Of a DNA stretch of 64,000 nt, positions 1,523-36,295 are shown piece by piece. Location of the stretch: assembly GCF_014697475.1 (NCBI RefSeq), contig NZ_JACJRV010000007.1, positions 62,001 through 126,000 of the forward strand, read 5' to 3'. The notes under the pieces are model-generated. The model searched no databases, was not told where the DNA came from, and saw nothing but the letters and a program-made list of their open reading frames with translations. The position numbers were made by a program, and so were the translations under genes. Source of the DNA: Nostoc sp. FACHB-152. GTDB lineage: Bacteria > Cyanobacteriota > Cyanobacteriia > Cyanobacteriales > Nostocaceae. How positions within the stretch are numbered: the stretch's first letter is position 1; the number at the start of each line of letters is the position of its first letter.

Positions 1523-2296
1523 ATGGACGTTATTCCAGCAATTGATTTACTAGAAGGCCGTTGTGTGCGACTGTATCAAGGAGACTATGAGCGATCGCAA
1601 GTTTTTAGTGAAAATCCTGTTGATGTTGCGAAACAATGGGTAGATCAAGGTGCAACTAGATTGCACTTAGTTGATTTAGATGGCGCAAAAGCAGGTAAAG
1701 TAATAAACTTGAAGGCTATTGAAGCGATCTCTCAAGCAATATCGGTACCGATTGAAGTGGGTGGTGGATTGCGCGATCGTTCTAGTGTGCAACAGGTGTT
1801 TAACTTGGGTGTACAATGGGCGATTCTGGGAACTGTCGCCGTTGAACAACCCCAGCTAGTCCAAGAACTCTGTCAAGAATTCCCCCAACAGATTATTATC
1901 GGCATTGATGCCCGCAATGGGAAGGTAGCCACTCGTGGTTGGTTAGAAACCTCAGAAGTTTTAGCCACTCAACTGGCTGTACAAATGCAAGAATTAGGTG
2001 CAGCCGCCATTATCTACACAGATATTCACCGCGATGGAACTCTCTCCGGCCCTAATATTGATGCGTTGCGCGAACTGGCTAGTGCTATAGATATCCCTGT
2101 AATTGCTTCTGGTGGTGTCAGTTCTGTGACTGATTTGTTGAGTTTGTTAGCTTTAGAACCTCAAGGTGTTACAGGTGCAATTGTGGGACGTGCTTTGTAT
2201 ACTGGTGATATTTTACTGGAAGAAGCACTACGAGCGATCGGGCCAGGACGCATTCAAGACATCCCCCCAAACCTTGGCTTTTCTTCCTTTGCCTAA
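1523..2296 (+). CDS. hisA: ProFAR isomerase HisA (histidine biosynthesis)
   Basis: Cytosolic 257-residue TIM-barrel enzyme for the fourth step of histidine biosynthesis, the Amadori isomerisation of ProFAR to PRFAR. The sequence opens [20 protein letters not shown] with catalytic Asp8; the second catalytic acid is Asp129 in [11 protein letters not shown]. The phosphate-binding loops VGGGLRD (about 79-85) and ASGGVSS in the second half are intact. Length is slightly above the usual 240-250 residues. A ribosome-binding site (AAAAGGAAAA) sits just before the ATG. It stands alone rather than in a his operon, as is usual in cyanobacteria. Confidence 0.95.
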
Positions 2297-2465
2297 AATT
2301 GGGTGTGTTCAAAATCGCGGCTAAATCAACTAATGGGCCTATATTGTAGACATAAAAGGCGGTTTGTCTGAGTTTAGCCGCGTATATTTCCGGAACAGGG
2401 ATTTACACTGCTGTAGGTAAAGTAGTAAATATTTTACAAACATTACAAACAGTGGGTGTATTCTA

Positions 2466-2591
2466 ATGCGTCGTCCACAACCGCAGCCAAAAGGTAAGCC
2501 AATTCAAACAGAACCTGGTGTTGTCCGATCTACTAAAAAAAATGACCAAGCTGATCAAGCACCAATAAAGAAACTAGATGAAATAGAATAG
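2466..2591 (+). CDS. Small basic protein, 41 residues, unknown
   Basis: An ORF too short for most gene finders, starting MRRPQPQPKGKPIQTEPG and ending KKLDEIE. It is rich in Pro, Gln and Lys and has no membrane segment. A terminator-like hairpin with a T-run follows at 2674-2706. The next small ORF (2791-2901) ends in the very similar SKGKPTQTDN, so the two share a KGKPxQT motif, which argues that both are real and related. No family is recognised and no strong ribosome-binding site is seen, so confidence is moderate. Confidence 0.45.
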   Translation: MRRPQPQPKGKPIQTEPGVVRSTKKNDQADQAPIKKLDEIE

Positions 2592-2673
2592 CTAATTTAT
2601 CTAAGTTTAAATACATTAACAATAATATTTACAAATTTTTTCAAAAATTATAATAATGGGTTTCCTCTGGAGT

Positions 2674-2706
2674 AGAGGCGCAAACACAATAGCGTCTCTT
2701 TTTTAT
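2674..2706 (+). terminator. Rho-independent terminator after the first small ORF
   Basis: Inverted arms AGAGGCGC (2674-2681) and GCGTCTCT (2692-2699) pair with one G-U wobble over a 10-nt loop, followed directly by a run of T. It would end transcription of the 2466 ORF and perhaps of hisA. Confidence 0.6.
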
Positions 2707-2790
2707 TTGCTACTGTAATTTTTTTAACTAATTTCTGGATTCAATAATATTCTTATTGTATATAAACTTATAGTTAATTGCCGCAGTCTT

Positions 2791-2901
2791 ATGTCTAGCC
2801 AGCAACCTAAATCTAAGCAACAAATTAAACAATCTAACCAAACTAGTACAAATCGTAAACAACCTCCTAGCAAAGGTAAACCAACTCAAACAGACAATTA
2901 A
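2791..2901 (+). CDS. Small Gln/Lys-rich protein, 36 residues, unknown
   Basis: A short ORF encoding MSSQQPKSKQQIKQSNQTST and then a tail with SKGKPTQTDN. The composition (Gln, Lys, Ser, Asn, no hydrophobic core) suggests an intrinsically disordered peptide. It shares KGKPxQT with the 41-residue ORF 200 bp upstream, with the same orientation but separated by a terminator. No family is recognised. It could instead be noncoding sequence; the shared motif is the main support. Confidence 0.4.
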   Translation: MSSQQPKSKQQIKQSNQTSTNRKQPPSKGKPTQTDN

Positions 2902-3093
2902 TACTAATACTAAGTGGCGTTCAAAAATAGGATTTCTACTCCCCACTCCCTATTCCCAACCCAAATTAAGATCTTTGATTGCAACTTGGTATAAGCAATA
3001 GCATGATATTATGTAGCGGTGTGCTAGATACTCCGATAGTTTGTCAGTGAAATCCCTACCTAACACACCTTACAATGTTTTATTTTCTCCTAA

Positions 3094-4173
3094 TTATTTA
3101 TTTTTCACCTGGCTTTTTGCCTGTTCTAGTGCTATCTCTTTAATTGCTTGGTATGAGTTCACATTGGCATTACCTTCAATCGCTTTAACTGCTAAATCTT
3201 GAACTTGTTGCAATGCCGAATCTAGTTGTTTAGACAGGTTTTGTATCCGAGATTCTTGATTAGTAATAGTCTGTTCTAAAGATTGTAATCTCTGCTCATA
3301 AAAACGCTTTTGTCCTTCTACTTCTTTAGCAATTAAATCTGCTTTGACCTTGGCTTGATAATGGGCAATACCTTTGCCTTCTTCTGTAGCTTTTTTGATA
3401 GCTGCTTCTTTCTCTTTCGGGAAAGCCTCTACTTTAGCTTTAGCTTCTTCAAATTGCTTTTCTCTTTCCGCAATTAGTTTTTCTCGTTCAGCCCACTGCT
3501 TTTCTGTTTCTTCTTGAAATTCTTCTAGTTGTCTATATAATTCTTTCTGTCTTTGCTCATATTCATTAGTTTCTAATTTTCGTTGGAGTTCTAAATCATA
3601 TTTGTACTCTGCTGTATCTCTTTGACGTGATTTATTGAGATTTTCATTTCGCTCTTTATTTGATTGTTTATATTCTTCTTGTTCTTTTTGCCAAGTAATG
3701 CGTTGCTCAAGTATTTCTTGAGATAAAACCTCATAACGTTGGTTATATTCTTCCTGATATGCCTTAGAATTATCTTCATAGGCTGTAATCAGTGTGTCTA
3801 ATGTATCGTCTGCTATTTCTAAGTTATGTAGTTGCTTTAAGTCAGCAATTTCAGTTTCAACATTTTGCCTAATTTCTGCCAGTTTAGAAGCTTGGGTAGT
3901 TAACTGTTCTGATAACTCATTCGCTGCACTACCAAATCCCAATTGAATTTTAGCTAGGCTTTCAATTGTATAATTCATCTTTTGTTGGATAGTAGTTTGC
4001 TTGTTCATAGCTGGAGTTTGTTCTACCTTGGGCTTATCTTTATTTACAGTCTGGCTATCTTTTTGAATTTGATTTAGTTGGGTTTTTAATCCTGTGGTTT
4101 CTTTCGCTAACTCTTCATACGCTTGCAGAATCTCAGCTTTCGTATTCTTATCCGTGAGTTTTTTACTAGCCAC
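3094..4173 (-). CDS. Coiled-coil protein, paralogue 2 of a tandem pair
   Basis: About 359 residues, almost entirely Glu/Lys/Gln-rich heptad-like sequence, so a long coiled coil with no signal peptide or membrane segment. GTG at 4173 is preferred over the TTG at 4179 because GGAGG lies six bases before it. It is a clear paralogue of the next gene upstream. Both have an N-terminal segment with a xxLQLEFGS / IQLGFGSAANELSE motif, a central EYKYDLELQRKLETNEYE-type stretch, an AFPxExExA motif, and a C-terminal LQQVQDLAVKA/LKQSQDLAMRA motif. The genes are 39 bp apart, so probably one operon. Function unknown; filament-forming or scaffold roles are possible for such proteins in filamentous cyanobacteria, but that is inference. 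Confidence 0.75.
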   Translation of the reverse strand: MASKKLTDKNTKAEILQAYEELAKETTGLKTQLNQIQKDSQTVNKDKPKVEQTPAMNKQTTIQQKMNYTIESLAKIQLGFGSAANELSEQLTTQASKLAEIRQNVETEIADLKQLHNLEIADDTLDTLITAYEDNSKAYQEEYNQRYEVLSQEILEQRITWQKEQEEYKQSNKERNENLNKSRQRDTAEYKYDLELQRKLETNEYEQRQKELYRQLEEFQEETEKQWAEREKLIAEREKQFEEAKAKVEAFPKEKEAAIKKATEEGKGIAHYQAKVKADLIAKEVEGQKRFYEQRLQSLEQTITNQESRIQNLSKQLDSALQQVQDLAVKAIEGNANVNSYQAIKEIALEQAKSQVKNK

Positions 4174-4212
4174 ACTCAACCTCCAAATACTCTAAATTTT
4201 TACGTTAAAAGT

Positions 4213-5196
4213 CTATTTAGCAGCAGAATTACCAAAAGCTCTCATTGCCAAATCCTGTGATTGTTTTAAGGTAGTTTGCAATTGTGTTGAGATACTTTCT
4301 ATTTGCTCTGTTTGTTTCTTAATTGTTTCTTCTAGGCTTTGAATCTTTAATTCGTAACTTTGTTTGGTTGCTTCCCATTCTTTCTCAAACAAGTCAGATT
4401 CAACTTTGGCTTTTTGGTTAGTATCTTTAATCGCTTCTTCTCTGGCTTTTTTAACTGCTTCTTCCAACTCAGCAGGAAAAGCTGCAACTTTTTGTTGATA
4501 TTCTGTAAATAAAGATTGATTCTTCGTTAAAACTTTTTCTCGTTCTGTCCAGTCTTTTTCTTTTTGTTGTGTTTTCTCTTGAATTTCTCTTTGAATGTTG
4601 CGTTGCATTTCTTCATAGGCATTTGTATTTAGTTTACGTGTAGTTTCTAGTTTATATTGATATTCTTCTTGTTCTTGTTGCCGTTCTTTAGTTGTTTTAT
4701 CGTTATAAGATTGTACTGATTCTTCATATTCTGATTGTTCTTTTTGCCATTCTTTGCGTTTTAAAGCAATTTCTTTTTCAATTGCTTCTTTCTTACTAGC
4801 TGTATCTTGTTCTATAGTTTTTAATTTTTCTTGATGTTCTTGAGTAAGAATATCTAATGTGTCTGCAACAATTCTGATTCTTTGTAGTTCTTGCAGATGT
4901 TGAGTCTCTATTTCTATAGCTCGGTTTAATTCATCTAGCTTCGAGTTTTCTTTAGCTAATTTCTCTGATAGAGAATTAACAATACTCCCAAATTCTAGCT
5001 GTAAATCGGCTAAACCTTTAACAATGCTATCAACAGTGTATGTAGAAGCCGCAGTTAAAATTTCTTGGTTCTTTGCTTTTTCTGCTTCTTCTTGTTTGGT
5101 CGCAATTTTTGATTCTAATTTTTTGCTTTCAGCTAAAATTTGTTGAAATGCTTGCATTAGTTGCTGTTTACTGTCTTTAACTGCAACTGTGGTCAT
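4213..5196 (-). CDS. Coiled-coil protein, paralogue 1 of a tandem pair
   Basis: A 327-residue coiled-coil protein beginning MTTVAVKDSKQQLMQAFQQI. The ATG at 5196 is chosen because GGGAG lies seven bases upstream; an in-frame TTG two codons earlier is too close to it. The region of about residues 50-90 (TVDSIVKGLADLQLEFGSIV) is less charged than the rest and conserved in the paralogue, as is the last 20 residues (LKQSQDLAMRAFGN), so these ends may be the functional interfaces and the middle (about 90-290) the rod. It is first in the two-gene unit. No catalytic motif is visible. The gene is AT-rich like its intergenic surroundings. Confidence 0.75.
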   Translation of the reverse strand: MTTVAVKDSKQQLMQAFQQILAESKKLESKIATKQEEAEKAKNQEILTAASTYTVDSIVKGLADLQLEFGSIVNSLSEKLAKENSKLDELNRAIEIETQHLQELQRIRIVADTLDILTQEHQEKLKTIEQDTASKKEAIEKEIALKRKEWQKEQSEYEESVQSYNDKTTKERQQEQEEYQYKLETTRKLNTNAYEEMQRNIQREIQEKTQQKEKDWTEREKVLTKNQSLFTEYQQKVAAFPAELEEAVKKAREEAIKDTNQKAKVESDLFEKEWEATKQSYELKIQSLEETIKKQTEQIESISTQLQTTLKQSQDLAMRAFGNSAAK

Positions 5197-5754
5197 ACTC
5201 AAACTCCCTTTATTAGCAATGAATTGATGAGGTAGTAAGCCATACCAATGGCTAGCTTATGCAGACATCAGCGTAACCTTTAAAACAGCAGTTTTTGTTC
5301 AGTACATATACTGGAGTGAGGAAATACTAAAGCCTGGGTACGCTGCAAATTCAACGTAATAGTTTCTTAGGCTTTTTGTAGGTATGGTTTGTCAGTGAAT
5401 TATAGTATTTTTGTACTAATAACTATACCCAAACTGATCTGCCCTTGTCAATAGAGAATTGCTGCTTTCATGAGGATAGCTGTAAGGCGTGATGGTAATC
5501 TGGTTTTTATGAGTTATGGAAATGAAAATCCCCTTATAAGCAGCTATAAACAGCAAATATCTAGCATCCAACAGTAAAAAACTAGATTGATGAAAATATG
5601 CAACCACTTTGATTTATAATGTAGATGTCGCTGTTATATATGTTACTTTTTGCAAACTAATGTGCTACAGCGCAACCATAAATGCACTGAGAAGTTAGAT
5701 AATTTACTCAATTCTCATATTGATACAAGCACAGGGCAGACTTTTGTGATATCA
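5197..5754. other. Intergenic region between divergent coiled-coil and sphR genes
   Basis: About 560 bp without a supported gene. It must hold the promoters of both the coiled-coil unit (leftward) and sphR (rightward); a TATAAT hexamer is present at 5615-5620 on the plus strand. A 13-mer at 5387-5399 (GTTTGTCAGTGAA) is repeated at 3039-3051 on the other side of the coiled-coil pair. No Pho box with 11-bp periodicity was found before sphR. Confidence 0.5.
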
Positions 5755-6507
5755 ATGTACACCAGTGAATCGACCAAGTATTCTGCCAGAGCAGATATCG
5801 GACACACAAGCCAGATTCTAGTGGTAGAAGATGAAGAGTTAATCCAAGAGATGCTAGCTGTAGCATTGGAAGAAGAAGGTTATGGGGTGGTAACAGCACC
5901 GGATGGCCGGGCGGCGGTTGAGTATCTCAAAAGTTTTGAACCCAACTCAGGCGAATTTCCCTTTGATTTGATTATTCTGGATTTGATGTTGCCGCAAATC
6001 AATGGATTAGATATCTGCCGTTTGCTGCGTCATCAAGGCAATCCAGTACCGATTTTGATGCTGAGTGCTAAGGGTAGTGAAACCGATCGCGTTTTAGGTT
6101 TAGAAGTCGGTGCAGATGACTATCTCACCAAACCTTTTAGTATGCGGGAACTTGTGGCACGCTGTCGCGCACTGCTGCGTCGTCAACGTTTAAGCACTTT
6201 ACCGCAGCTACCAGTTCTGAAATATAAAGATGTTACGTTAAATCCTCAAGAGTGTCGCGTGTTAGTGAGGGGTCAAGAAGTTAGCCTTTCCCCGAAAGAA
6301 TTCCGCCTGTTGGAGTTGTTTATGAGTTATACGCGGCGCGTTTGGTCACGGGAGCAATTGTTGGATCAAGTTTGGGGGCCAGATTTTGTAGGTGATAGCA
6401 AAACTGTGGATGTCCACATCCGTTGGTTGCGCGAGAAGTTAGAACTAGACCCCAGCCATCCTGAATATATTGTGACTGTACGAGGATTTGGCTATCGTTT
6501 CGGATAA
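5755..6507 (+). CDS. sphR: Phosphate-starvation response regulator SphR (PhoB-type)
   Basis: OmpR/PhoB-class response regulator of 250 residues. The receiver domain (about 20-135) has acidic pocket Glu25/Asp26, phospho-acceptor Asp76 in DLIILDLMLP, Ser104 and Lys126 in YLTKPF. The C-terminal winged helix (about 150-250) ends VDVHIRWLREKLE…TVRGFGYRFG. When phosphorylated by SphS it binds Pho boxes and activates phosphate-acquisition genes. Followed 59 bp later by the kinase gene and then phoU, the standard cyanobacterial order, which decides SphR over other OmpR paralogues. ATG 5755 is chosen; a TTG at 5650 would add 35 atypical residues. Confidence 0.88.
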   Translation: MYTSESTKYSARADIGHTSQILVVEDEELIQEMLAVALEEEGYGVVTAPDGRAAVEYLKSFEPNSGEFPFDLIILDLMLPQINGLDICRLLRHQGNPVPILMLSAKGSETDRVLGLEVGADDYLTKPFSMRELVARCRALLRRQRLSTLPQLPVLKYKDVTLNPQECRVLVRGQEVSLSPKEFRLLELFMSYTRRVWSREQLLDQVWGPDFVGDSKTVDVHIRWLREKLELDPSHPEYIVTVRGFGYRFG

Positions 6508-6566: not shown

Positions 6567-7895
6567 ATGGTCTTATTGGGATTTCTTCTAGGTTTGGCAG
6601 TAGGTATCGGGTTTTGGATTTGGCAACAAGTTCAACTAAACCGCTACCTAAGTCGAGTGTTGCAACCATATTCTGGCTCTAGTAAGGTAGCTTTGCCACT
6701 ATTGCCTCGTTTGCGTCAGGAAATCTCAACATTAAAACAGCAAAGTCAAGATTTACAGCAATCCCTGCAAACTTACCAAGACCTGCTGGATTTTGCACCA
6801 ATAGGGTATTTGCAAGTTGATGAAGAAAATCAATTGTTGTGGTGCAATCAACAAGCGCAGGAAATCTTATATCTGCAAAGATGGCAGCCAGGACAGGTGC
6901 GCTTGTTGCTGGAGTTGGTGCGGTCTTATGAATTAGATCGATTAATTGAGCAAACACGCGATCGCCAAAAACCCCAAACTAAAGAATGGGTATTTCATCG
7001 CTCATGCGATAATGCCGCAGAATTACCCACAATTAAATCTCTGGCTTTACGCGCCTCTGGTTTACCTTTACTCAACGGACAAGTCGGAGTTTTTCTCGAA
7101 AATCGTCAACCACTGCTAGATATGAATCAGGAACGCGATCGCTCGTTTTCTGATTTAGCCCATGAACTCAGAACACCGTTGACTTCGATTCGGTTGGTGG
7201 TAGAAACTCTCCAACATCGCCTAGAACCACCCTTAAGTCGCTGGGTTGACCGCCTGATGCAAGAAGTTGACAGACTAATTAGCTTAGTTCAAGGCTGGTT
7301 AGAACTGACGCAAATCGAAGCCAACCCCAATATGCAGTTGCAGCTTGAACCAGTGGAAGTGCGATCGCTGATTACATCTGTTTGGGAAAGTTTAGAACCA
7401 TTAGCCCAACGGCAACGTTTATCTCTTACCTATTCCGGGCCAGAAGACATTTGGGTGAAAGCAGATAAAGCCAGAATCTATCAAGTTTTTCTCAATTTGC
7501 TAGACAATAGCATTAAGTACAGTTGTCCTAGCACAAAAATTCAAGTGGAAGCAAAAATTAGATTCTTAGAAGATAATCATAAACATAGTTCTACACCTCC
7601 GACTTTAGAAATAAATTTAATTGATTCGGGAACAGGTTTTTCCGAGGCAGATTTACCCCATATTTTTGAGCGATTTTATCGCGGAGATAAAGCACGAACT
7701 CATTCTCCCTTGACAGAGACTAATTCCCTAGGGTCAATTGTAGGTAATGGTTTAGGTTTAGCGATCGTGCGCCAAATCCTACTGGCTCATGGTGGTTCCA
7801 TTAAAGCAATGAACCATCCCCAGACAGGTGGTGCTTGGATGCAACTTATACTTCCAGAAGTTGTGGCAAACTCTCAAAGCCAAGACTATAGTTAA
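6567..7895 (+). CDS. sphS: Phosphate-sensing histidine kinase SphS
   Basis: A 442-residue sensor kinase, membrane-anchored by one N-terminal helix (about residues 2-20), with no large periplasmic domain. A PAS-like region (about 70-185) precedes the dimerisation/phosphoacceptor domain with His199 in DLAHELRTPLTS. The ATPase domain has the N box NLLDNSIKYS (Asn314), DSGTGFS (Asp353), FERFYRG and GNGLGLAI (393-400). It phosphorylates SphR under phosphate limitation; in this PhoR-like family the N-terminal helix and PAS region mediate membrane location and PhoU-dependent inhibition. Located between sphR and phoU. Confidence 0.9.
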   Translation: MVLLGFLLGLAVGIGFWIWQQVQLNRYLSRVLQPYSGSSKVALPLLPRLRQEISTLKQQSQDLQQSLQTYQDLLDFAPIGYLQVDEENQLLWCNQQAQEILYLQRWQPGQVRLLLELVRSYELDRLIEQTRDRQKPQTKEWVFHRSCDNAAELPTIKSLALRASGLPLLNGQVGVFLENRQPLLDMNQERDRSFSDLAHELRTPLTSIRLVVETLQHRLEPPLSRWVDRLMQEVDRLISLVQGWLELTQIEANPNMQLQLEPVEVRSLITSVWESLEPLAQRQRLSLTYSGPEDIWVKADKARIYQVFLNLLDNSIKYSCPSTKIQVEAKIRFLEDNHKHSSTPPTLEINLIDSGTGFSEADLPHIFERFYRGDKARTHSPLTETNSLGSIVGNGLGLAIVRQILLAHGGSIKAMNHPQTGGAWMQLILPEVVANSQSQDYS

Positions 7896-7923
7896 TAGTA
7901 TCTTCACTTTTGAGTATACAAGT

Positions 7924-8589
7924 GTGGAAGCTGTCTTTTATAATTCCAACCCCGACAGTTCTCAGTTAACACGCGCCATCAGGCGTTTAGAACGGGATGT
8001 TTTACGCATGGGTGCTTTGGTAGAACAATCATTTCGCCTCAGCCACCAAGCCTTATTCGCCCGTAATCTAACAGCTGCTGAAGAACTCCCCCGATTAGAT
8101 AAAAAAATTGATCGCTTTTATAGACAAATCGAATCAGACTGTACAAACATCATGACTCAAGCACCAACAGCCCAAGATTTGCGCTGTTTGAGTGCTTTTA
8201 TGCAATTGGTGCGAGATTTAGAACGTATTGGTGATTATGCCAAAGATTTAGGCAAAATTTCCGTGAAACTTTTTCCTTATCCGCCTCATGCATCTTTGCC
8301 AGAAATTGAAGTTATGTCGCACCATGCACAGGCAATGTTAGCGACTAGCTTAGTAGCTTTGGCAGATTTAGATGAAGCAGGCGGGCGCGGAATTAAGCAC
8401 CTAGATGATGCTGTAGATAATGCTTATGATCACCTTTATCAAACCTTAGCCCAGCAACGAGATGTCCCAGGAGTAGTAGAGCCAATCATACTGTTAGCTT
8501 TAGCGATTCGCTGTCTAGAACGTATGGCAGATCATGCTACTAATATTGGTCAGCGAGTGGCATATATTGTCACTGGTCAACGCGCTTAA
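7924..8589 (+). CDS. phoU: Phosphate signalling regulator PhoU
   Basis: A 221-residue all-helical protein with two PhoU repeats. Each carries the metal-binding-type E/D-x-x-R-x-x-D segment: VRDLERIGDYAKDLG in the first half and IRCLERMADHATNIGQRVAYI in the second. PhoU represses the SphS kinase when phosphate is plentiful. GTG at 7924 is taken as start, 28 bp after sphS; a longer frame would begin inside sphS and give residues with no family counterpart. Third gene of the sphR-sphS-phoU unit, closed by a strong hairpin terminator at 8687-8733. Confidence 0.88.
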   Translation: MEAVFYNSNPDSSQLTRAIRRLERDVLRMGALVEQSFRLSHQALFARNLTAAEELPRLDKKIDRFYRQIESDCTNIMTQAPTAQDLRCLSAFMQLVRDLERIGDYAKDLGKISVKLFPYPPHASLPEIEVMSHHAQAMLATSLVALADLDEAGGRGIKHLDDAVDNAYDHLYQTLAQQRDVPGVVEPIILLALAIRCLERMADHATNIGQRVAYIVTGQRA

Positions 8590-8893: not shown

Positions 8894-8923
8894 TTTTACT
8901 AATATTTTACCTATTCTTAACCT
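8894..8923 (+). promoter_or_regulatory. Pho box upstream of phoX (three 8-mers, 11-bp period)
   Basis: Three direct repeats TTTTACTA (8894-8901), TTTTACCT (8905-8912) and CTTAACCT (8916-8923), each separated by 3 bp. They fit the cyanobacterial SphR site, repeated PyTTAAPyPy(T/A) every 11 bp; the third repeat matches fully, the others deviate at one to three positions. The box ends 72 bp before the phoX start. A further CTTAAC hexamer lies just upstream, out of phase. Together with the neighbouring sphR-sphS this makes phosphate control of phoX likely. Confidence 0.72.
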
Positions 8924-8995: not shown

Positions 8996-11188
8996 ATGAG
9001 TATTAAGCGTCGAGAATTCTTGCTGTTCATGGGAAGTAGCGTTAGTACAATAGCGTTTAGTCATCTCATAGGTTGCGATCAGAATACTACGACGCAAACA
9101 ACCAGCAAATCATCAGTTGTAAAATCCAAGTTTTCATTTACACCAATTAATGGCCCAATTCCCTTAGAAACAGCAGGACTAAACCTAGAACAGCAGCAAG
9201 CTCAATACAATAGCTATGAAGTAGTAGATGACGTAGTATTACCAGAAGGCTTTAAATATCAAGTAATTGCTGCTTGGGGCGATCGCGTCGGTAATTCTCG
9301 GTTTGGTTACAACAACGATTATTTATCTTTTATCCCGACGGCAGAAAACGCTGGTTATCTTTCAGTTAACTTTGAGTACATCAGCGCTATTCCTTGGATG
9401 GAAACCTATGAGCAAGTAATTGGTAAATCACTGCCGTTTGCTGATGTCAAAGCAGCTTTGCAAGGTAAAAATGAAATTAATGCCTATACTTTGCCAGATA
9501 ATGAGCCATTAAAACTGAAAATTAGGGAAATTTGTCAAGAAGCATTGTTAGATCAAGGGCTAGGTGTAGTTTCGATTCGTCAGTCAGCCGATGGTAATTG
9601 GGAAAGAACTAATTCCGTAGCCGATAGACGAATTAGTGGGATATCTGGTTTAGAAGATGGACGTTATTTGCAAGCGACTGGCCCAGCAGTAGCAGTATTT
9701 CGCAAGCAAAAGGGACAGGGTTACATAGATAAATTAGACGATCGCATCATTGGTACTTTCGCTAACTGTGCTGGCGGAACAACACCTTGGGGTACTGTTC
9801 TCAGTGCAGAAGAAAACTTTCAAGCACAAGTACCGGAAACTGTCCACGCCGATGGTACAGCTGTTGACCCAGGAGAATTACCTTTTGCGTTGGGTGATGA
9901 GGAATTGTTCGGTCAAGGAAATGTGTTTGGGTTGGCGGGAAATAAATATGGTTGGATTGTGGAAATTGATCCAGCTAATCCGAAAGATTATGGGACAAAA
10001 CACACTTGGTTAGGACGTTACCGCCATGAAGCTGTAGGTGTGCGGGTAGAAGCAGGTAAACCCCTAGCTTTTTATTCAGGATGCGATCGCAGGGGAGGAC
10101 ACATCTACAAATTTGTCAGTAAGGATAAAGTCACAAATCCCCAAGACAAAGCTAATTCTAAGCTATTACAACAGGGAATGCTTTATGCTGCTAAGTTCAA
10201 TGTTGATGGTACTGGTAGCTGGATACCTTTAAAAGCTGAGACACCTGTCAACCCAGATATTCCCAGTCAGATTGCTGGAAATACCATACTTTTACCATTA
10301 GGCGCGAAGGCGGAAAAAGCAGGTTATTTAACAGCTACTAAAGATGAGGCGATCGCCCAATTTAAGCAAAATTATGCCACATTAGGCGATTTATATATAG
10401 GTAATGCCGAAGAAAAACAAGGTGCAATTTTAATTGATGCACACTACGCCGCCAATGCTGCTGGTGCTACTTGTACAGCACGTCCCGAAGATACAGAAAT
10501 AGCTCCCAACGGTGATTTATTCATCAGTTTTACCTCTGGAAGTCCTGACAAACAAGGCGGTTCTGATTTGCGAATCTTCAAAAGTTCCAAAGGTGAAGCA
10601 CCCTACGAATATGGCTGGGTGATGCGGTTAACTGAAGATCAGAACGACCCCGCAGCCATGACTTTTCGTTGGCAAATGTTAGCTACCGGTGGCGAACCAG
10701 CCGCCGGTGGGATGGGTTTTGCTAACCCGGATAATTTATTACTCGATCCTCAAGGTCACGTCTGGATGGTGACAGATATCTCTACATCAAAACTCAATGA
10801 TGCTATCACAAGCCGTAATCCAGAGTCAGGAAAATCTGTAAGTTTATCTGGTTTATTTGGCAACAACTCTATGTGGTTTTTACCGACCAGTGGTGCAGAT
10901 GCAGGTAAAGCCTTTTTATTTGCGATCGCACCGATGGAATGTGAAGCCACTGGCCCTTGTTTCACCAACGATCAAAAAAGTTTGTTCCTATCCATACAAC
11001 ACCCAGGAGAAACAAATGGTACAAGAAAAAATCAAGCTACCGAAACTAAACAATTTGTAGTCACCACTACTACAGGCAAAGAGTTTTTGCAAACTCGCAA
11101 AGTTCCTATTGGTTCTAATTGGCCTGATAAAACTCCTAATTCACCCCCTAAACCAGCCGTTATTGCGATCGTAAAATCCCAGATATAG
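8996..11188 (+). CDS. phoX: PhoX-family alkaline phosphatase, Tat-exported
   Basis: A 730-residue DUF839/PhoX protein, a calcium/iron-dependent phosphomonoesterase that releases phosphate from organic esters outside the cytoplasm. The N-terminus carries a Tat motif (Arg5-Arg6 in KRREFLLFMG), a hydrophobic segment, and LIGC ending at Cys27, a possible lipobox, so it may be lipid-anchored. Family blocks NCAGGTTPWGTVLSAEENFQ, YRHEAVGVRVE, YSGCDRRGGHIYKF and RPEDTEIAPNGDLFISFTSG are present. The position just after sphR-sphS-phoU and behind a Pho box supports the assignment. Length is in the family range and no frame damage is seen. Confidence 0.9.
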   Translation: MSIKRREFLLFMGSSVSTIAFSHLIGCDQNTTTQTTSKSSVVKSKFSFTPINGPIPLETAGLNLEQQQAQYNSYEVVDDVVLPEGFKYQVIAAWGDRVGNSRFGYNNDYLSFIPTAENAGYLSVNFEYISAIPWMETYEQVIGKSLPFADVKAALQGKNEINAYTLPDNEPLKLKIREICQEALLDQGLGVVSIRQSADGNWERTNSVADRRISGISGLEDGRYLQATGPAVAVFRKQKGQGYIDKLDDRIIGTFANCAGGTTPWGTVLSAEENFQAQVPETVHADGTAVDPGELPFALGDEELFGQGNVFGLAGNKYGWIVEIDPANPKDYGTKHTWLGRYRHEAVGVRVEAGKPLAFYSGCDRRGGHIYKFVSKDKVTNPQDKANSKLLQQGMLYAAKFNVDGTGSWIPLKAETPVNPDIPSQIAGNTILLPLGAKAEKAGYLTATKDEAIAQFKQNYATLGDLYIGNAEEKQGAILIDAHYAANAAGATCTARPEDTEIAPNGDLFISFTSGSPDKQGGSDLRIFKSSKGEAPYEYGWVMRLTEDQNDPAAMTFRWQMLATGGEPAAGGMGFANPDNLLLDPQGHVWMVTDISTSKLNDAITSRNPESGKSVSLSGLFGNNSMWFLPTSGADAGKAFLFAIAPMECEATGPCFTNDQKSLFLSIQHPGETNGTRKNQATETKQFVVTTTTGKEFLQTRKVPIGSNWPDKTPNSPPKPAVIAIVKSQI

Positions 11189-30829: not shown

Positions 30830-30996
30830 CATCATTGTACAGTAAGAAGTATAACAAAAGAGTAGGGGCAAAATTGCTTTACTACTCTTTGGATGGCTGG
30901 CGCTGTTAGGCGTTAAGCCTACCCGTCAACACAAAGACACTCCTTGCACCTTGTTTTATAACGTCTTTGTCTTCAGCCGAACGCTCTTTGTTACCT

Positions 30997-31716
30997 ATGC
31001 AATCTCCATCCTCCTTTTCTGAGGCATCACGCCCTTTTCTGACTTGGCAACGGATTCTTGATTGGGCTCAAGAACACTACCGCTGCCGCACCTTTAGCAA
31101 AGATGAACGCATTCCCGCTAGACCAGGATTGCTTTATTTAGTGCAGAGAGGTGCAATCCGTATGGTAGGCACTGCTCAAGTGAGTGCTACTGCCAGTCAG
31201 CTAACATCTCGACGCATTAATAGAACTCCAGAAGAAGCATTCTTGGGTTTTGTTGGCGCGGGACAACCGTTTGAAATTGTTGCTCAGTCACCGTTTACGC
31301 TTCAGTCATACGCTCACGTTGATCAAACTGCGGTACTGTGGATGTACTGGCATGATTTAGATAATTGGCCTCACTTCCGCCGTGAAGTTATGGATGCCTT
31401 TAGGTACCAGCATCAACGTAAATTACTTTGGCTAAGTGCTTTGGGTCAACGACGCACAATTGACCGTCTTTTAGGATTCCTTACATTGTTGATTGAGGAA
31501 TATGGCGAACCAGCAATGAGTGAAACTGACCCAGATGTAATTCGTGGCTATTGTCTACCTTTCCCTCTCACTCATGCCCAAATTGGTAGCGCGATCGGTT
31601 CAACTCGTGTTACTGTTACTCGCTTAATGGGTAAGTTACGGCAACGTGGCTTAATCTTGACTCAAGGTGATAATCTCATTTGCTTGCCAGCAGAATCGAT
31701 TAATAGAGCCAGCTAA
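30997..31716 (+). CDS. devH: Crp/Fnr-family regulator DevH
   Basis: A 239-residue protein starting MQSPSSFSEASRPFLTWQRI. A divergent sensor domain (about 10-165, RPGLLYLVQRGAIRMVG…FVGAGQPFEIV) precedes a Crp-type winged helix with AQIGSAIGSTRVTVTRLMGKL, whose recognition helix is nearly identical to that of NtcA. In Nostoc sp. PCC 7120 DevH is needed for the heterocyst glycolipid layer and aerobic nitrogen fixation. The assignment rests on my memory of the protein and on its position near rbcR, ndhF1 and ndhD1. ATG 30997 is preferred to TTG 30967. A GTAN8TAC site lies upstream. Confidence 0.8.
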   Translation: MQSPSSFSEASRPFLTWQRILDWAQEHYRCRTFSKDERIPARPGLLYLVQRGAIRMVGTAQVSATASQLTSRRINRTPEEAFLGFVGAGQPFEIVAQSPFTLQSYAHVDQTAVLWMYWHDLDNWPHFRREVMDAFRYQHQRKLLWLSALGQRRTIDRLLGFLTLLIEEYGEPAMSETDPDVIRGYCLPFPLTHAQIGSAIGSTRVTVTRLMGKLRQRGLILTQGDNLICLPAESINRAS

Positions 31717-32335: not shown

Positions 32336-33370
32336 TTAACGAAGTCTGACAAATCCAGCTTTTGCAATTAATTCCTGACCTTGATCTGTGAGTAAGAGGT
32401 TAGCATAGGCTTCTCCCGCTTGCTGGTCACTTTCTCGATTTTGCTTAACAATCACAAATAAGCGTCGGGTGATAGGATATTCACCGCTTTGGAACACATC
32501 TGTATTAATTTGGTTACGTTGTTGCGGACATTTTTCTAAGGGAACATAAGGTTCTTTGTAAGGCACTACCTGGTTTTGAGTTTTCCGCCCCAGACCTAAA
32601 GGTTTTACACTACACTGTCCAATAATTTCTGGGGCTGAGGCGTAGTAAATGCCACCGGGATTTTTTGCTAATTCTTTTAAGGCTTGTGTGGTTGTTGGGA
32701 TAAATTGCACATTAGTACCAAATTTTTCTCCCGTTAACACGTTATCTTCAAAAAACTCGATTGTGCCGCTATCTTCTAAGCGACGAGAGTACGGTGTTAT
32801 AGGTAATTTTGGGCCGCCTAACTGTTCCCAGTTAGTTATTTTGCCTGTATAAATGTCTTTAAGCTGGGTAACAGTTAATCCCGAAATTTTCAGACTGGGG
32901 TTAACTGCGATCGCAATTCCATCAATTGCCACTGGAATTGCTTTCAGTGTAAATCCCAATTGTTTTGCTTGTTCGTTTTCTTCTGGTTTAATAGCTCTAG
33001 AAGACTGAGAAAAAGCTAGCTGATTATCTAGCAGCATCTTAATTCCAGTACTAGAACCAGGCGTGTCCTTAATAGGATTAGTGTAACGTAGTTGAAATCT
33101 AGGCCAAACAATTTGTATTGCTGAATCAACTTCATTCCGGATGGGAGCCCAAGTGGTACTACCGCCATAACTAAATAATCCTGAAGGGATGTTTGCCACT
33201 TGCGAAAAGTTATCAGTATTTGGTCTTTCTACACGCTCCCTCGTCAAAGGATCACCTTTGAGGCGATACTTGTTAAAAAACCACCACAACAAACCACCGG
33301 CTAGCCCTATGGTAATGAAGAGCGTTAGAACCAAGACCTTAGTTTCATTAGTTCTATTTTGTTCTGACAT
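32336..33370 (-). CDS. PstS-like phosphate-binding protein, membrane-anchored
   Basis: A 344-residue periplasmic binding protein of the PstS/PBP-like type. One N-terminal membrane helix (about 12-31) is followed by a short linker, so it is probably an anchored protein, not a free one. The binding fold starts at about 60 with FSYGGSTTWAPI, a variant of the PstS phosphate loop, followed by PGSSTGIKMLL, AFSQSSRAIK, IAIAVNP, LKDIYTGKITNWEQLGG and DSGTIEFF. No pstC, pstA or pstB gene is nearby, so it either serves a transporter encoded elsewhere or acts in sensing. A Pho box lies 157 bp upstream, which supports a phosphate role. Confidence 0.8.
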   Translation of the reverse strand: MSEQNRTNETKVLVLTLFITIGLAGGLLWWFFNKYRLKGDPLTRERVERPNTDNFSQVANIPSGLFSYGGSTTWAPIRNEVDSAIQIVWPRFQLRYTNPIKDTPGSSTGIKMLLDNQLAFSQSSRAIKPEENEQAKQLGFTLKAIPVAIDGIAIAVNPSLKISGLTVTQLKDIYTGKITNWEQLGGPKLPITPYSRRLEDSGTIEFFEDNVLTGEKFGTNVQFIPTTTQALKELAKNPGGIYYASAPEIIGQCSVKPLGLGRKTQNQVVPYKEPYVPLEKCPQQRNQINTDVFQSGEYPITRRLFVIVKQNRESDQQAGEAYANLLLTDQGQELIAKAGFVRLR

Positions 33371-33526
33371 AACTAGTTCGGTGTAAATATTTGTATTTGG
33401 GTTAAGGAGGCAGGAGAGAATAGAAATTGAGGCTAGTTCATCTTGATTTAGCTAGTTTGGTCTGATTGTGCCGACTTTCCTCAGTATTTATCTATGGTTT
33501 GCTATTAAAAGCAATTTCTCATTTTG

Positions 33527-33556
33527 TGGCTAACTAAAGGTTAAATATTGGTTAAG
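33527..33556 (-). promoter_or_regulatory. Pho box upstream of the PstS-like gene
   Basis: On the minus strand the order is CTTAACCA (33556-33549), ATA, TTTAACCT (33545-33538), TTA, GTTAGCCA (33534-33527). The 8-mers repeat exactly every 11 bp. The first two fit PyTTAAPyPy(T/A) completely and the third differs at two positions. The geometry is identical to the box upstream of phoX at 8894-8923. It points to control by SphR and gives the gene its own promoter, separate from the kinase gene upstream. Confidence 0.78.
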
Positions 33557-33628: not shown

Positions 33629-34993
33629 TTAGAATACTAAGGATAAAAATTTATATATCAGACGAAATAGTGCTGTAAACGCAATAGCTATTAAGCTGGC
33701 TGTAACAGCTAAAAACACCAGTTGTAAAATACCTAGACCTGCCTGTAGAAACGGGAATAAAACAACTAACACTAATGTAATACTTGCAATCAATAATAAT
33801 ACTTTCTTGTCAATCCAGCGTTTAGTTTGGGCAAAAATCATGAAGCCTAAAATCCCCAATGTGATGATGAATGTGAGCGTTGGTGATGTAACTAAGCTCA
33901 AACTTGCGATCGCAATCAATGCACCTTCAAACCCGCTAAATGCTGCCCCTAGCAGTAAATCCCAGATAGAAAAATTAGAATATGCCTGTCTTAGCTGTGA
34001 GGGGGGTTGCGTGTATGGTGATGCTGTTGGAGGTATTAAGTTGCGAAAAAGTTCTAAAAGTACCTGATCGGCAGATTGAAAGCGTTGATTGACAGCAGGT
34101 AGAAGCATTCTTTCTAAAATGTCAGCTAAAGAAGGGTTAATATTCACCTGCGATCGCCATATCCACTGGTTGCTGAGAGGATCGATTAACTGGGTTGCTG
34201 GTTTACCTGTAAGCAAGGTAAGAACAGTTACAGCTAAAGCGTATAAATCTGTACAGGGAAATACGCGATTTCCATTTACTTGTTCGGGTGGGGCAAATCC
34301 CATTGAATAAATTCCCGTAGAGGAGTTAGTTCCACCTGATGCTGCATTTGTTACCTGTTTAACTGCACCAAAATCTAAGAGAAAGAGGTTACCATCCCGA
34401 CGGCGCATGATATTAGATGGTTTAATGTCTCTATGAATAATGCCTTTGTCATGGACAAACTTGAGGATCTTGAGGATTTCTTGCAATACATATAAAGCTT
34501 CTAGTTCTGAAAACTTACCTTTTTGAGATAATTCTTCCTCAAGGTTCTGTCCATCAATATGTTCTTGTACCAAGTAAAAAAACTGGTCTTCGTGATTTAA
34601 ATGGTTAAAGCTGGGAACTGTAACCGGGAAAAAAGCGTATAAGTCTGGTATTTGATCGTGTTGGCTGCCGATTTGTGCTAAAACTTCTGCTTCTCTCTCA
34701 AACAACTGTTGTGCTATCTGCAATTGATTATGACTGAGATTTCCGGCTGGTTGAAACTGCTTCACCACACATGAACGCATTCCCGGAATGCGGCGATCGC
34801 GTGCGAGAAAGGCGGCGGCGAATCCGCCTCGACCCAACAATTTGACGGGCAGATATCGTCCATCAAGTATTAAGGGCATTCCACAGGTAGCACAATATTT
34901 CTGCTGCGTTGTTGAGAGTGCTGTAACATCATCCAAGTCCGCAAAATAGTTTTTTGGACGCGGACAACGTGGACGAGTGCAATAAACTTCCAT
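33629..34993 (-). CDS. Ser/Thr protein kinase with N-terminal four-Cys motif and membrane tail
   Basis: A 454-residue Hanks-type kinase. Cys5, Cys10, Cys34 and Cys37 form an N-terminal zinc-ribbon-like pair. The kinase domain (about 45-320) has GRGGFAAAF, Lys78 in VVKQF, HRDIKPSN with Asp189, DFG at 207-209 and an APPEQ segment, so it should be active. A linker and about four membrane helices (about 345-450) complete it, with no extracellular sensor. Four-Cys kinases of this kind are common in filamentous cyanobacteria; targets are unknown. Same strand as the PstS-like gene, 258 bp apart, but that gap contains the PstS-like gene's own Pho box. Confidence 0.85.
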   Translation of the reverse strand: MEVYCTRPRCPRPKNYFADLDDVTALSTTQQKYCATCGMPLILDGRYLPVKLLGRGGFAAAFLARDRRIPGMRSCVVKQFQPAGNLSHNQLQIAQQLFEREAEVLAQIGSQHDQIPDLYAFFPVTVPSFNHLNHEDQFFYLVQEHIDGQNLEEELSQKGKFSELEALYVLQEILKILKFVHDKGIIHRDIKPSNIMRRRDGNLFLLDFGAVKQVTNAASGGTNSSTGIYSMGFAPPEQVNGNRVFPCTDLYALAVTVLTLLTGKPATQLIDPLSNQWIWRSQVNINPSLADILERMLLPAVNQRFQSADQVLLELFRNLIPPTASPYTQPPSQLRQAYSNFSIWDLLLGAAFSGFEGALIAIASLSLVTSPTLTFIITLGILGFMIFAQTKRWIDKKVLLLIASITLVLVVLFPFLQAGLGILQLVFLAVTASLIAIAFTALFRLIYKFLSLVF

Positions 34994-35076: not shown

Positions 35077-36090
35077 TTAGCCTTCGTCAGAGGAGTTGGT
35101 TGCTGCTACATCTAATGTATTTATTACTAGCTTTTTTTGCGACAATTTTAACAGGTCTTGATTCCATCCTGGAGTAGCAAACTGCGGTAAAATTTCTTGA
35201 CTAAATGCTTCTGCGGCTTTGGAACGATAACGATTAGGATTAAAAATCAGCCACAGCGTTCGTTTGACAATCACACCTTCAATGGGAGAGCAGTGTAGTA
35301 CACCCATTTGTAATTCTTTGGCGATCGCCGATGTTGAGACAAAGGCAGCACCTAAACCTGATTGCACAGCATTTTTGATTGCTTCTATGGAATTTAATTC
35401 CATTTCAATTTTGAAGCGTCTGGTATCAATCTCGCAGCGTGCTAGCACTTGATCGATGACCTTGCGAATCGTTGACTGCGAATCTAACGCGATAAATTGT
35501 AATTTATATAGGTCTTCTTTTTGAATTGTTTCTAGTTTGGCAAAGGGATGAAAAACCGGGAGAATTAGTGCCAGTTCATCTTCAGCGTAAGGAATAATTT
35601 CCAAAGATTCTGCTAGTTCTCCGGGAATTTCCCCTCCAATAATTGCCAAATCTACTTGCCCATTAGCAACACTCCAAGCAGTCCGGCGAGTCGAGTGAAC
35701 GTGCAGTTGCACTGCGACATCGGGATATTTTTGGCGAAACATCCCAATCATTCTGGGCAACAGATAAGTTCCGGTGGTTTGCGAAGCACCAACAATCAAT
35801 GTCCCGCCTTGAAGATTTTGCAAGTCTTCTATGGCGCGACAGGTTTCTTGACACAAACTCAGGATTTTTTCACCGTAACTGAGAAGTAGATGCCCTGCTT
35901 CGGTTAGTTGTGCGCGACGGCCACCACGGTCGAACAGGGGAACATCCAGCTGCCGTTCCAGGTTCTGCACTTGCAAACTGACGGCAGGTTGGGAGACGTA
36001 TAGACTATCAGCAGCGCGCTTGAAGCTCCCTTCTACAGCGATCGCTTTCAGGATACGTAACTGATCTAAAGTGAAAGGAAGGTCAGACAT
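35077..36090 (-). CDS. rbcR: LysR-type regulator, RbcR type
   Basis: A 337-residue LysR regulator. The N-terminal winged helix (about 5-65) reads [20 protein letters not shown]…[14 protein letters not shown], and the effector domain covers about 95-300. It resembles the cyanobacterial RbcR/CmpR/NdhR group that controls Rubisco and carbon-uptake genes. Position between devH and ndhF1, as I recall for rbcR in Nostoc sp. PCC 7120, favours RbcR over CmpR or NdhR, but the three are similar. ATG 36090 is preferred over TTG 36099. The effector is probably a photosynthetic metabolite; this is family knowledge. Confidence 0.75.
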
Positions 36091-36295
36091 AAGGCTCAAC
36101 CCACAAACAAGAAAGGAGCGGCTTTAGCAATAAATCTGGTTTCACCACTAGGACGTGAGAAATGATTTATTGCATCTTAAACTTGGAGACTGTCATCGAA
36201 AAAGTCAGTAAGACAACATCGTTAATCAAGTCCCCTGTTGAATACTTTGTGTTATTGGTTGTACTGGATTAATTTTTCTTTAAATAACTTCACCC

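Follow-up and report, generated by a model that had tools for sequence, protein, structure and literature searches.

The gene at positions 32336 to 33370 (minus strand) of the window, i.e., the whole 64,000-nucleotide stretch analyzed here, which comes from a filamentous cyanobacterium, is best viewed, with modest confidence, as an SphR (Pho) regulon gene whose product is the periplasmic sensing subunit of a split receptor kinase of the Ser/Thr type. As for the parts of this reading, the gene is very probably an SphR target, and its product likely partners the neighboring kinase as its sensor. The support is drawn from sequence: a conserved Pho box, a predicted fold and a membrane anchor for the binding protein, the motifs of the kinase, shared gene order and some natural fusions. 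The initial annotation had described an orphan PstS-like gene preceded by a Pho box; the picture shifts from an orphan binding protein to a probably SphR-controlled sensor partner of the adjacent kinase.

The box lies at positions 33527 to 33556 (minus strand) and reads CTTAACCA-ata-TTTAACCT-tta-GTTAGCCA. These are three 8-mers at an exact 11-bp period, just as originally described, with two mismatches to the strict pattern YTTAACCW x3. Relative to the cyanobacterial SphR box consensus that PMC9846622 quotes from Suzuki et al. 2004 (YTTAAYYW x3, with 3-bp linkers), the box differs at 2 of 24 positions. Its third repeat, GTTAGCCA, is weak and poorly conserved beyond the genus.

Only one other site of the window was within three mismatches of the strict pattern (0 sites expected from 100 shuffles), and this was the comparison Pho box upstream of phoX, at 8894 to 8923 on the plus strand. 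The same two sites scored highest in the window with a weight matrix built from 24 of the 30 rows in Table 1 of Su et al. 2007 (omitting three PCC 7942 near-copies of PCC 6301 rows, CCMP1375, NATL2A and the second MED4 row). The scores were 22.46 for the box and 22.48 for the phoX site; when the window was shuffled 100 times with dinucleotides preserved, no site scored above 18.9.

The alkaline phosphatase gene phoX (8996 to 11188, plus strand) and a gene for PhoU (7828 to 8589, plus strand) were both recognized through Pfam. The sphRS-type genes that the initial annotation had placed about 25 kb from the box are indeed there, encoding a response regulator (5650 to 6507, plus strand) and a histidine kinase (6567 to 7895, plus strand) of the PhoB/SphR and PhoR/SphS type, though the former scored below the NCBIfam PhoB cut-off and the latter below the NCBIfam cut-offs. 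Upstream of these genes, at 3094 to 5202 on the minus strand, two adjoining ORFs of coiled-coil type look similar to each other by eye.

When the whole genome was scanned with the strict pattern, allowing up to three mismatches, five sites were found, versus two for a reversed control pattern. Four of the five precede genes for PstS, PhoX, a phytase-like esterase and the PstS-like protein under study; the fifth is near the gene for an AMP-binding enzyme and is oriented away from it. The looser pattern YTTAAYYW x3, with up to two mismatches, matched 23 sites versus 4 for the control. Most of the looser sites inspected had no evident phosphorus gene downstream, three were inside long ORFs, and one further site was upstream of a DNA/RNA endonuclease-like gene. 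The sites before the esterase and endonuclease-like genes are at G000:C13:4338-4367 (L021) and G000:C32:2282-2311 (L149), respectively.

In the window, 156 bases separate the box from the start codon (ATG at 33370). A block immediately 3' of the box, CAAAATGAGAAATTGC (33511 to 33526, minus strand), is conserved in the alignment of relatives and is probably part of the core promoter; a -10 element was sought near this block, but more than one spacing could be read and none was clearly assignable. Between the promoter and the ATG, the window carries about 110 bases that have no counterpart in the aligned relatives, and a stretch there (33371 to 33461, minus strand) partly matches eight other places in the genome with 69-90% identity.

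We assessed the conservation of the box within the family, to which the scan was confined. Besides the window, 92 family genomes gave a match to the binding protein; 60 of them were mapped in detail and, with the window, make up the 61 loci discussed below. Two genomes were omitted from the mapping (G019, due to a contig end, and G086, due to 38% contamination), 21 more of the 92 were also outside the counts, and nine additional loci (L044 to L052) were checked for the box only. The two-repeat core at the 11-bp period was present upstream of 18 of 39 first-copy orthologs with at least 60% identity (18/41 under the start-site choice of another script) and before 2 of 62 lower-identity copies. 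At nine other spacer lengths, no match to the two-repeat core was found in either set of copies, and 200 dinucleotide shuffles gave a mean of 0.05 matches, with a maximum of 1. In 16 of the 18 positives, the core starts 48-81 bases before the start codon, the exceptions being L111 (174) and the window (185). The nine additional loci, counted separately, had the core in seven cases.

The upstream regions of the flanking genes never contained the two-repeat core (0/206: kinase 0/54, Crp 0/50, LysR 0/47, DALR 0/18, NnrU 0/32, thioredoxin 0/5), nor did those of a type I binding protein found in some of the clusters (0/22). A role of the box as kinase promoter was ruled out, as the box is located 3' of the kinase stop codon and no kinase upstream region was positive.

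In a tree of 91 binding-protein rows (copies shorter than 300 aa were excluded), the 25 rows labeled as having the box required 6 changes, versus 22.1 when the labels were shuffled, and 23 of the 25 were grouped in one tree half of 42 rows. The initial annotation had named disappearance of the 11-bp repeats from close relatives as an argument against the box, and this was largely not observed: all five genus genomes examined (window included) were positive in the box test of the tree, and L013 retained the strict two-repeat core. The box was weakened in L010 and L011, with matrix scores of 17.5 and 18.4 and no strict two-repeat match; in L010, where the protein is 85% identical, it has decayed to five mismatches from the strict pattern. 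We note that L013 and L012 are apparently the same contigs as L095 and L099.

Consensus, matrix, shuffle controls and ortholog conservation thus agree on an SphR-type Pho box, and regulation of the binding-protein gene by the Pho system appears well supported by these sequence criteria. The box is retained across several genera. However, 21 of the 39 first-copy orthologs and 60 of the 62 lower-identity copies have no two-repeat core, meaning that Pho control is not universal, and the box is also absent from nearly all second copies of the binding protein. A passage on the RNA-seq P-stimulon of Nodularia (PMC9846622), where no conserved P-box was found before P-induced genes, likewise counts against generality. 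Given these absences and the clustering of the box in the tree, Pho control was seemingly kept in one lineage, and the best reading is that the PstS-like subunit came under SphR control in one lineage of the Nostocaceae.

The protein encoded downstream (344 aa) matches the Pfam family PF12849 (PBP_like_2) with 106.8 bits, against a cut-off of 27, and the best sequence match to solved phosphate-binding proteins had an E value of 6.6e-21. An AlphaFold2 model of the domain only, computed with 10 sequences, had a pLDDT of 90.4; a full-length model computed with 8 sequences (pLDDT 54.1) was set aside. When the domain model was submitted to Foldseek, phosphate-binding proteins filled the first 41 rows, and VIA-align of the predicted model gave Z scores of 27.8 for 1twy (240 residues) and 27.6 for 4gd5 (242 residues). 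The structural matches include the phosphate-bound 4gd5 and Synechocystis Sll0540 (9l8j). No pstCAB genes adjoin the binding-protein gene, whose neighbors encode a kinase, a LysR-type and a Crp-family regulator. The original description of a PstS-like protein with a membrane anchor and no pstCAB alongside holds.

The canonical PstS loop motif is RxxxSGT, which we take to belong, with other residues, to the phosphate pocket. The window protein has RxxxSGT, and most orthologs have RxxxGGT. Residues S106, R125 and D150 are invariant or nearly so in the stand-alone copies, and the motifs of the pocket region are nearly invariant across the binding-protein family. The NCBIfam PstS models scored under their cut-offs (TIGR02136, 144.2 vs 206.6; TIGR00975, 40.6 vs 205). 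Since the fold resembles that of phosphate-binding proteins but the loop is mostly GGT and these models remain under cut-off, we regard phosphate as a plausible ligand, at roughly even chances.

The mostly GGT loop and the low TIGR02136 score leave room for a ligand other than phosphate. A kinase sensor for another oxyanion or for a small metabolite, with Pho control reflecting cross-talk, would agree with a GGT in place of SGT in most members combined with a nearly invariant pocket motif, with the sub-cut-off NCBIfam scores and with the lack of a Pho box before most copies. We nevertheless consider this unlikely, because the top structural matches are phosphate-binding proteins, one of them phosphate-bound, and because several genera have kept the Pho box.

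Contrary to the description of the gene as an orphan, at most mapped family loci it sits in a cluster with the usual order LysR, kinase, anchored binding protein(s), Crp. In the window, the kinase (33629 to 34993, minus strand), which is the proposed partner, is a Hanks-type Ser/Thr kinase with a four-cysteine prefix and C-terminal hydrophobic (membrane) segments. It matches PF00069 with 115.6 bits (cut-off 31.7), its HRDxKPxN, DFG and four-cysteine motifs are kept in 54/54 mapped kinases, and no extracytoplasmic domain of its own was recognized in its sequence. At 54 of the 61 loci, such a kinase immediately precedes an anchored binding protein among the mapped genes, on the same strand (gaps of 27-1388 bases), and the Crp gene follows on the opposite strand at 52 of the 61; these counts are conditional on the binding protein, the loci having been selected for holding it. 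No ORF of at least 80 aa is present between the kinase and binding-protein genes of the window.

The cluster is flanked upstream by the LysR-type gene (35077 to 36099, minus strand) and downstream by the Crp-family gene (30967 to 31716, plus strand). Judging by context, the two are PacR/RbcR-like and DevH-like, putatively corresponding to PacR and DevH of Anabaena PCC 7120, which passages in the literature identify as all3953 (PMC12052932) and alr3952 (PMC7699953), respectively. As these locus tags are consecutive, PCC 7120 would seem to lack any annotated gene between the two.

In 25 family genomes, no binding protein was found at E ≤ 1e-60, and we examined 20 of these. A kinase match after the LysR gene was kept in 13 (in one case of 36 aa only), so the kinase can occur without the binding protein; one genome had LysR adjoining Crp, and four had neither in the available stretch. 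The remaining two genomes contained remnants of the binding protein between the LysR and Crp genes (L122 and L124), suggesting that the cluster is decaying in some genomes.

The N-terminal membrane anchor of the window protein (VLVLTLFITIGLAGGLLWW; residues 12-30, encoded at 33281 to 33337 on the minus strand) follows a NET motif and, by eye, looks uncleaved. The conserved pattern is 'NET + VLxLxLLITxGLxGGxWW'. A similar anchor occurs in a type I binding protein encoded at related loci (Peripla_BP_6, according to Pfam on two of them), which accounts for 22 genes in the mapped clusters, e.g., L071:1070-2482, L081:4290-5699 and 20 further genes; none was found in the cluster of the window. Over their best 20 residues, type I and type II (PstS-like) anchors are 51-52% identical, compared with 24-27% for control membrane segments. 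An earlier comparison restricted to rows with a NET-like motif had given 51% vs 20-23%, but such preselection inflates identity and the comparison was repeated without it. A docking site shared on the kinase would account for unrelated periplasmic domains carrying one anchor type next to one kinase, and we infer that the anchor may dock on the kinase membrane domain.

At one locus (L137), a kinase, a membrane segment and a PstS-like domain are encoded in a single ORF. The kinase part is 65% identical to the window kinase over 316 residues, the PstS-like part is 61% identical to the window protein over 351 alignment columns, and the anchor is 39-44% identical to the cluster anchors (controls, 30%). 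When the fused protein was searched against 291 genomes of the order, with the best three candidates per genome considered, full-length coverage was found only for G320 itself and for two ORFs of G141, 45-48% identical to the fused protein. The exact fusion of this kinase with this binding protein thus occurs in one genome only, among those candidates. Long kinase frames (818-886 aa) from the order search resembled extra fusions; the one read (L166, in G274) consists of two adjacent ORFs.

The PstS-like domain recurs in other settings. It is fused to other kinases at L139, L145 and L146, whereas at L138 and L140 to L144 it follows an N-terminal CHAT-type (caspase-like) protease region and a membrane segment, an arrangement suggesting ligand-controlled proteases. 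The CHAT assignment was made by Pfam for the three proteins scanned (L138, coordinates 1890-4025, L141 and L143) and by eye for the others. In the genome of the window, a copy of the binding domain is divergent from another kinase (L002).

The same genome contains two ORFs in which a degenerate kinase-like region is fused to a weak PBP_like_2 domain (L004:379-2592 and L005:1453-3612). Only the second gave a Pkinase match, at 27.4 bits and thus under the cut-off, and by eye an FHA-like gene is next to each. In a further ORF (L003:562-2460), PBP_like_2 is preceded by some 330 N-terminal residues without a Pfam match.

These arrangements bear on whether the protein might serve transport instead, as an auxiliary high-affinity phosphate-binding subunit, akin to SphX, for a PstCAB encoded elsewhere; its Pho control would follow from that role and the kinase would be incidental. 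The PstS fold and the Pho box fit such a function, as does the presence in the genome of other PstS-type genes, some of them followed by permease-like ORFs, and SphX itself, in the account of Su et al. 2007 (PMC1906773), is a precedent for an extra binding subunit. A transport subunit, however, would not be expected to adjoin a kinase at 54 of 61 loci, to be fused to kinases and CHAT proteases, or to share a similar anchor with an unrelated binding protein of type I, and we judge this alternative improbable. Given how often the domain is found beside or fused to kinases, sensing is favored, of the two roles proposed in the initial annotation, over service to a distant transporter. Finally, that the box is a functionless, AT-rich direct repeat arising by chance is highly improbable and we discarded it: loose Pho patterns do match many genomic places with no evident phosphorus function, but the shuffle controls, the fixed period and position, the 0/206 flanking regions and the clustering in the tree all speak against it.

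Under the preferred reading, i.e., an SphR-controlled sensor subunit of the adjacent kinase, a fall in phosphate would cause phosphorylated SphR to bind the triple repeat, and this binding would raise the amount of anchored PstS-like protein. The anchor would hold this protein in the membrane and dock there with the membrane part of the upstream-encoded kinase. A ligand in the PstS-like lobe, most likely phosphate, would then alter the activity of the kinase on cytoplasmic targets.

A broader reading, which we offer tentatively, is that of a modular split-receptor family in cyanobacteria, in which one transmembrane Ser/Thr kinase would be served by interchangeable periplasmic domains, either PstS-like (type II) or Leu/Ile/Val-like (type I), carried on a common anchor. 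The same PstS-like domain would also be used on CHAT proteases, and the SphR-controlled PstS-like subunit of one Nostocaceae lineage would constitute a second phosphate-responsive branch fed by the first.

If correct, the preferred reading would add a branch of Ser/Thr phosphorylation to phosphate sensing in the Nostocaceae, besides the usual SphS-SphR route. In Synechocystis, SphS-SphR was described as the exclusive sensor for responses to phosphate limitation (Suzuki et al. 2004, by its title as cited in PMC9846622). A passage in PMC6069109 calls the stimuli that activate bacterial Ser/Thr kinases an outstanding question; our reading would supply a concrete ligand hypothesis for a kinase for which no stimulus was found in the literature searched. 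The similar anchors and the natural fusion lead to direct, testable predictions.

Comparison with known systems starts from the SphR regulon. As in the sites presented by Su et al. (2007; tables and text of PMC1906773), the box consists of three 8-mers with 3-bp linkers, fits the same consensus and is located in the promoter of a periplasmic-type gene. Here, however, the third repeat is weak and the target is a kinase-linked binding protein rather than a transporter or phosphatase. In Table 2 of that study, predicted SphR sites are also given for certain kinase genes of Anabaena variabilis and PCC 7120; in its Results text, we recognized no counterpart of the PstS-like gene.

Among additional phosphate-binding proteins preceded by Pho boxes, SphX (PMC1906773) comes closest. 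The window protein shares the fold and the family PF12849 with PstS/SphX, with Synechocystis Sll0540 (PDB 9l8j) and with 4gd5 of Clostridium perfringens. It differs from this group in its apparently uncleaved N-terminal anchor, the lack of pstCAB, the adjoining kinase, the mostly GGT pocket of its family and the sub-cut-off NCBIfam scores. In Nodularia, an Sll0540-like protein is listed separately from the pst operons in a portion of PMC3610870.

Cyanobacterial Ser/Thr kinases with CHASE-type sensors (Zhang et al. 2007, main text of PMC2176072) also combine a kinase with an extracytoplasmic sensor, but here the sensor is PstS-like and usually a separate protein. No mention of a PstS- or PBP-type sensor was found in the main text of that kinase survey or in the corresponding text of a second one (PMC2877116), and a limited search of open-access papers returned no description of a kinase-PstS fusion or pair.

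In its working, the nearest system is GlnH-GlnX-PknG of Actinobacteria (Bhattacharyya et al. 2018), in which, as outlined in parts of PMC6069109, a solute-binding protein has been proposed to pass a signal through the membrane to a Ser/Thr kinase. Both systems have a binding protein encoded with a Ser/Thr kinase. According to the same parts of that paper, the actinobacterial binding protein is a lipoprotein for Asp/Glu/Asn that acts with a separate membrane protein, whereas the window locus has no separate membrane transducer of the GlnX type between the two genes; here, the PstS-like binding protein is itself anchored, the kinase contributes membrane segments of its own, and the binding-protein gene is preceded by a Pho box. 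By analogy, the pair formed by the kinase and the PstS-like protein may work like GlnH-GlnX-PknG, without being assigned to that system as a member.
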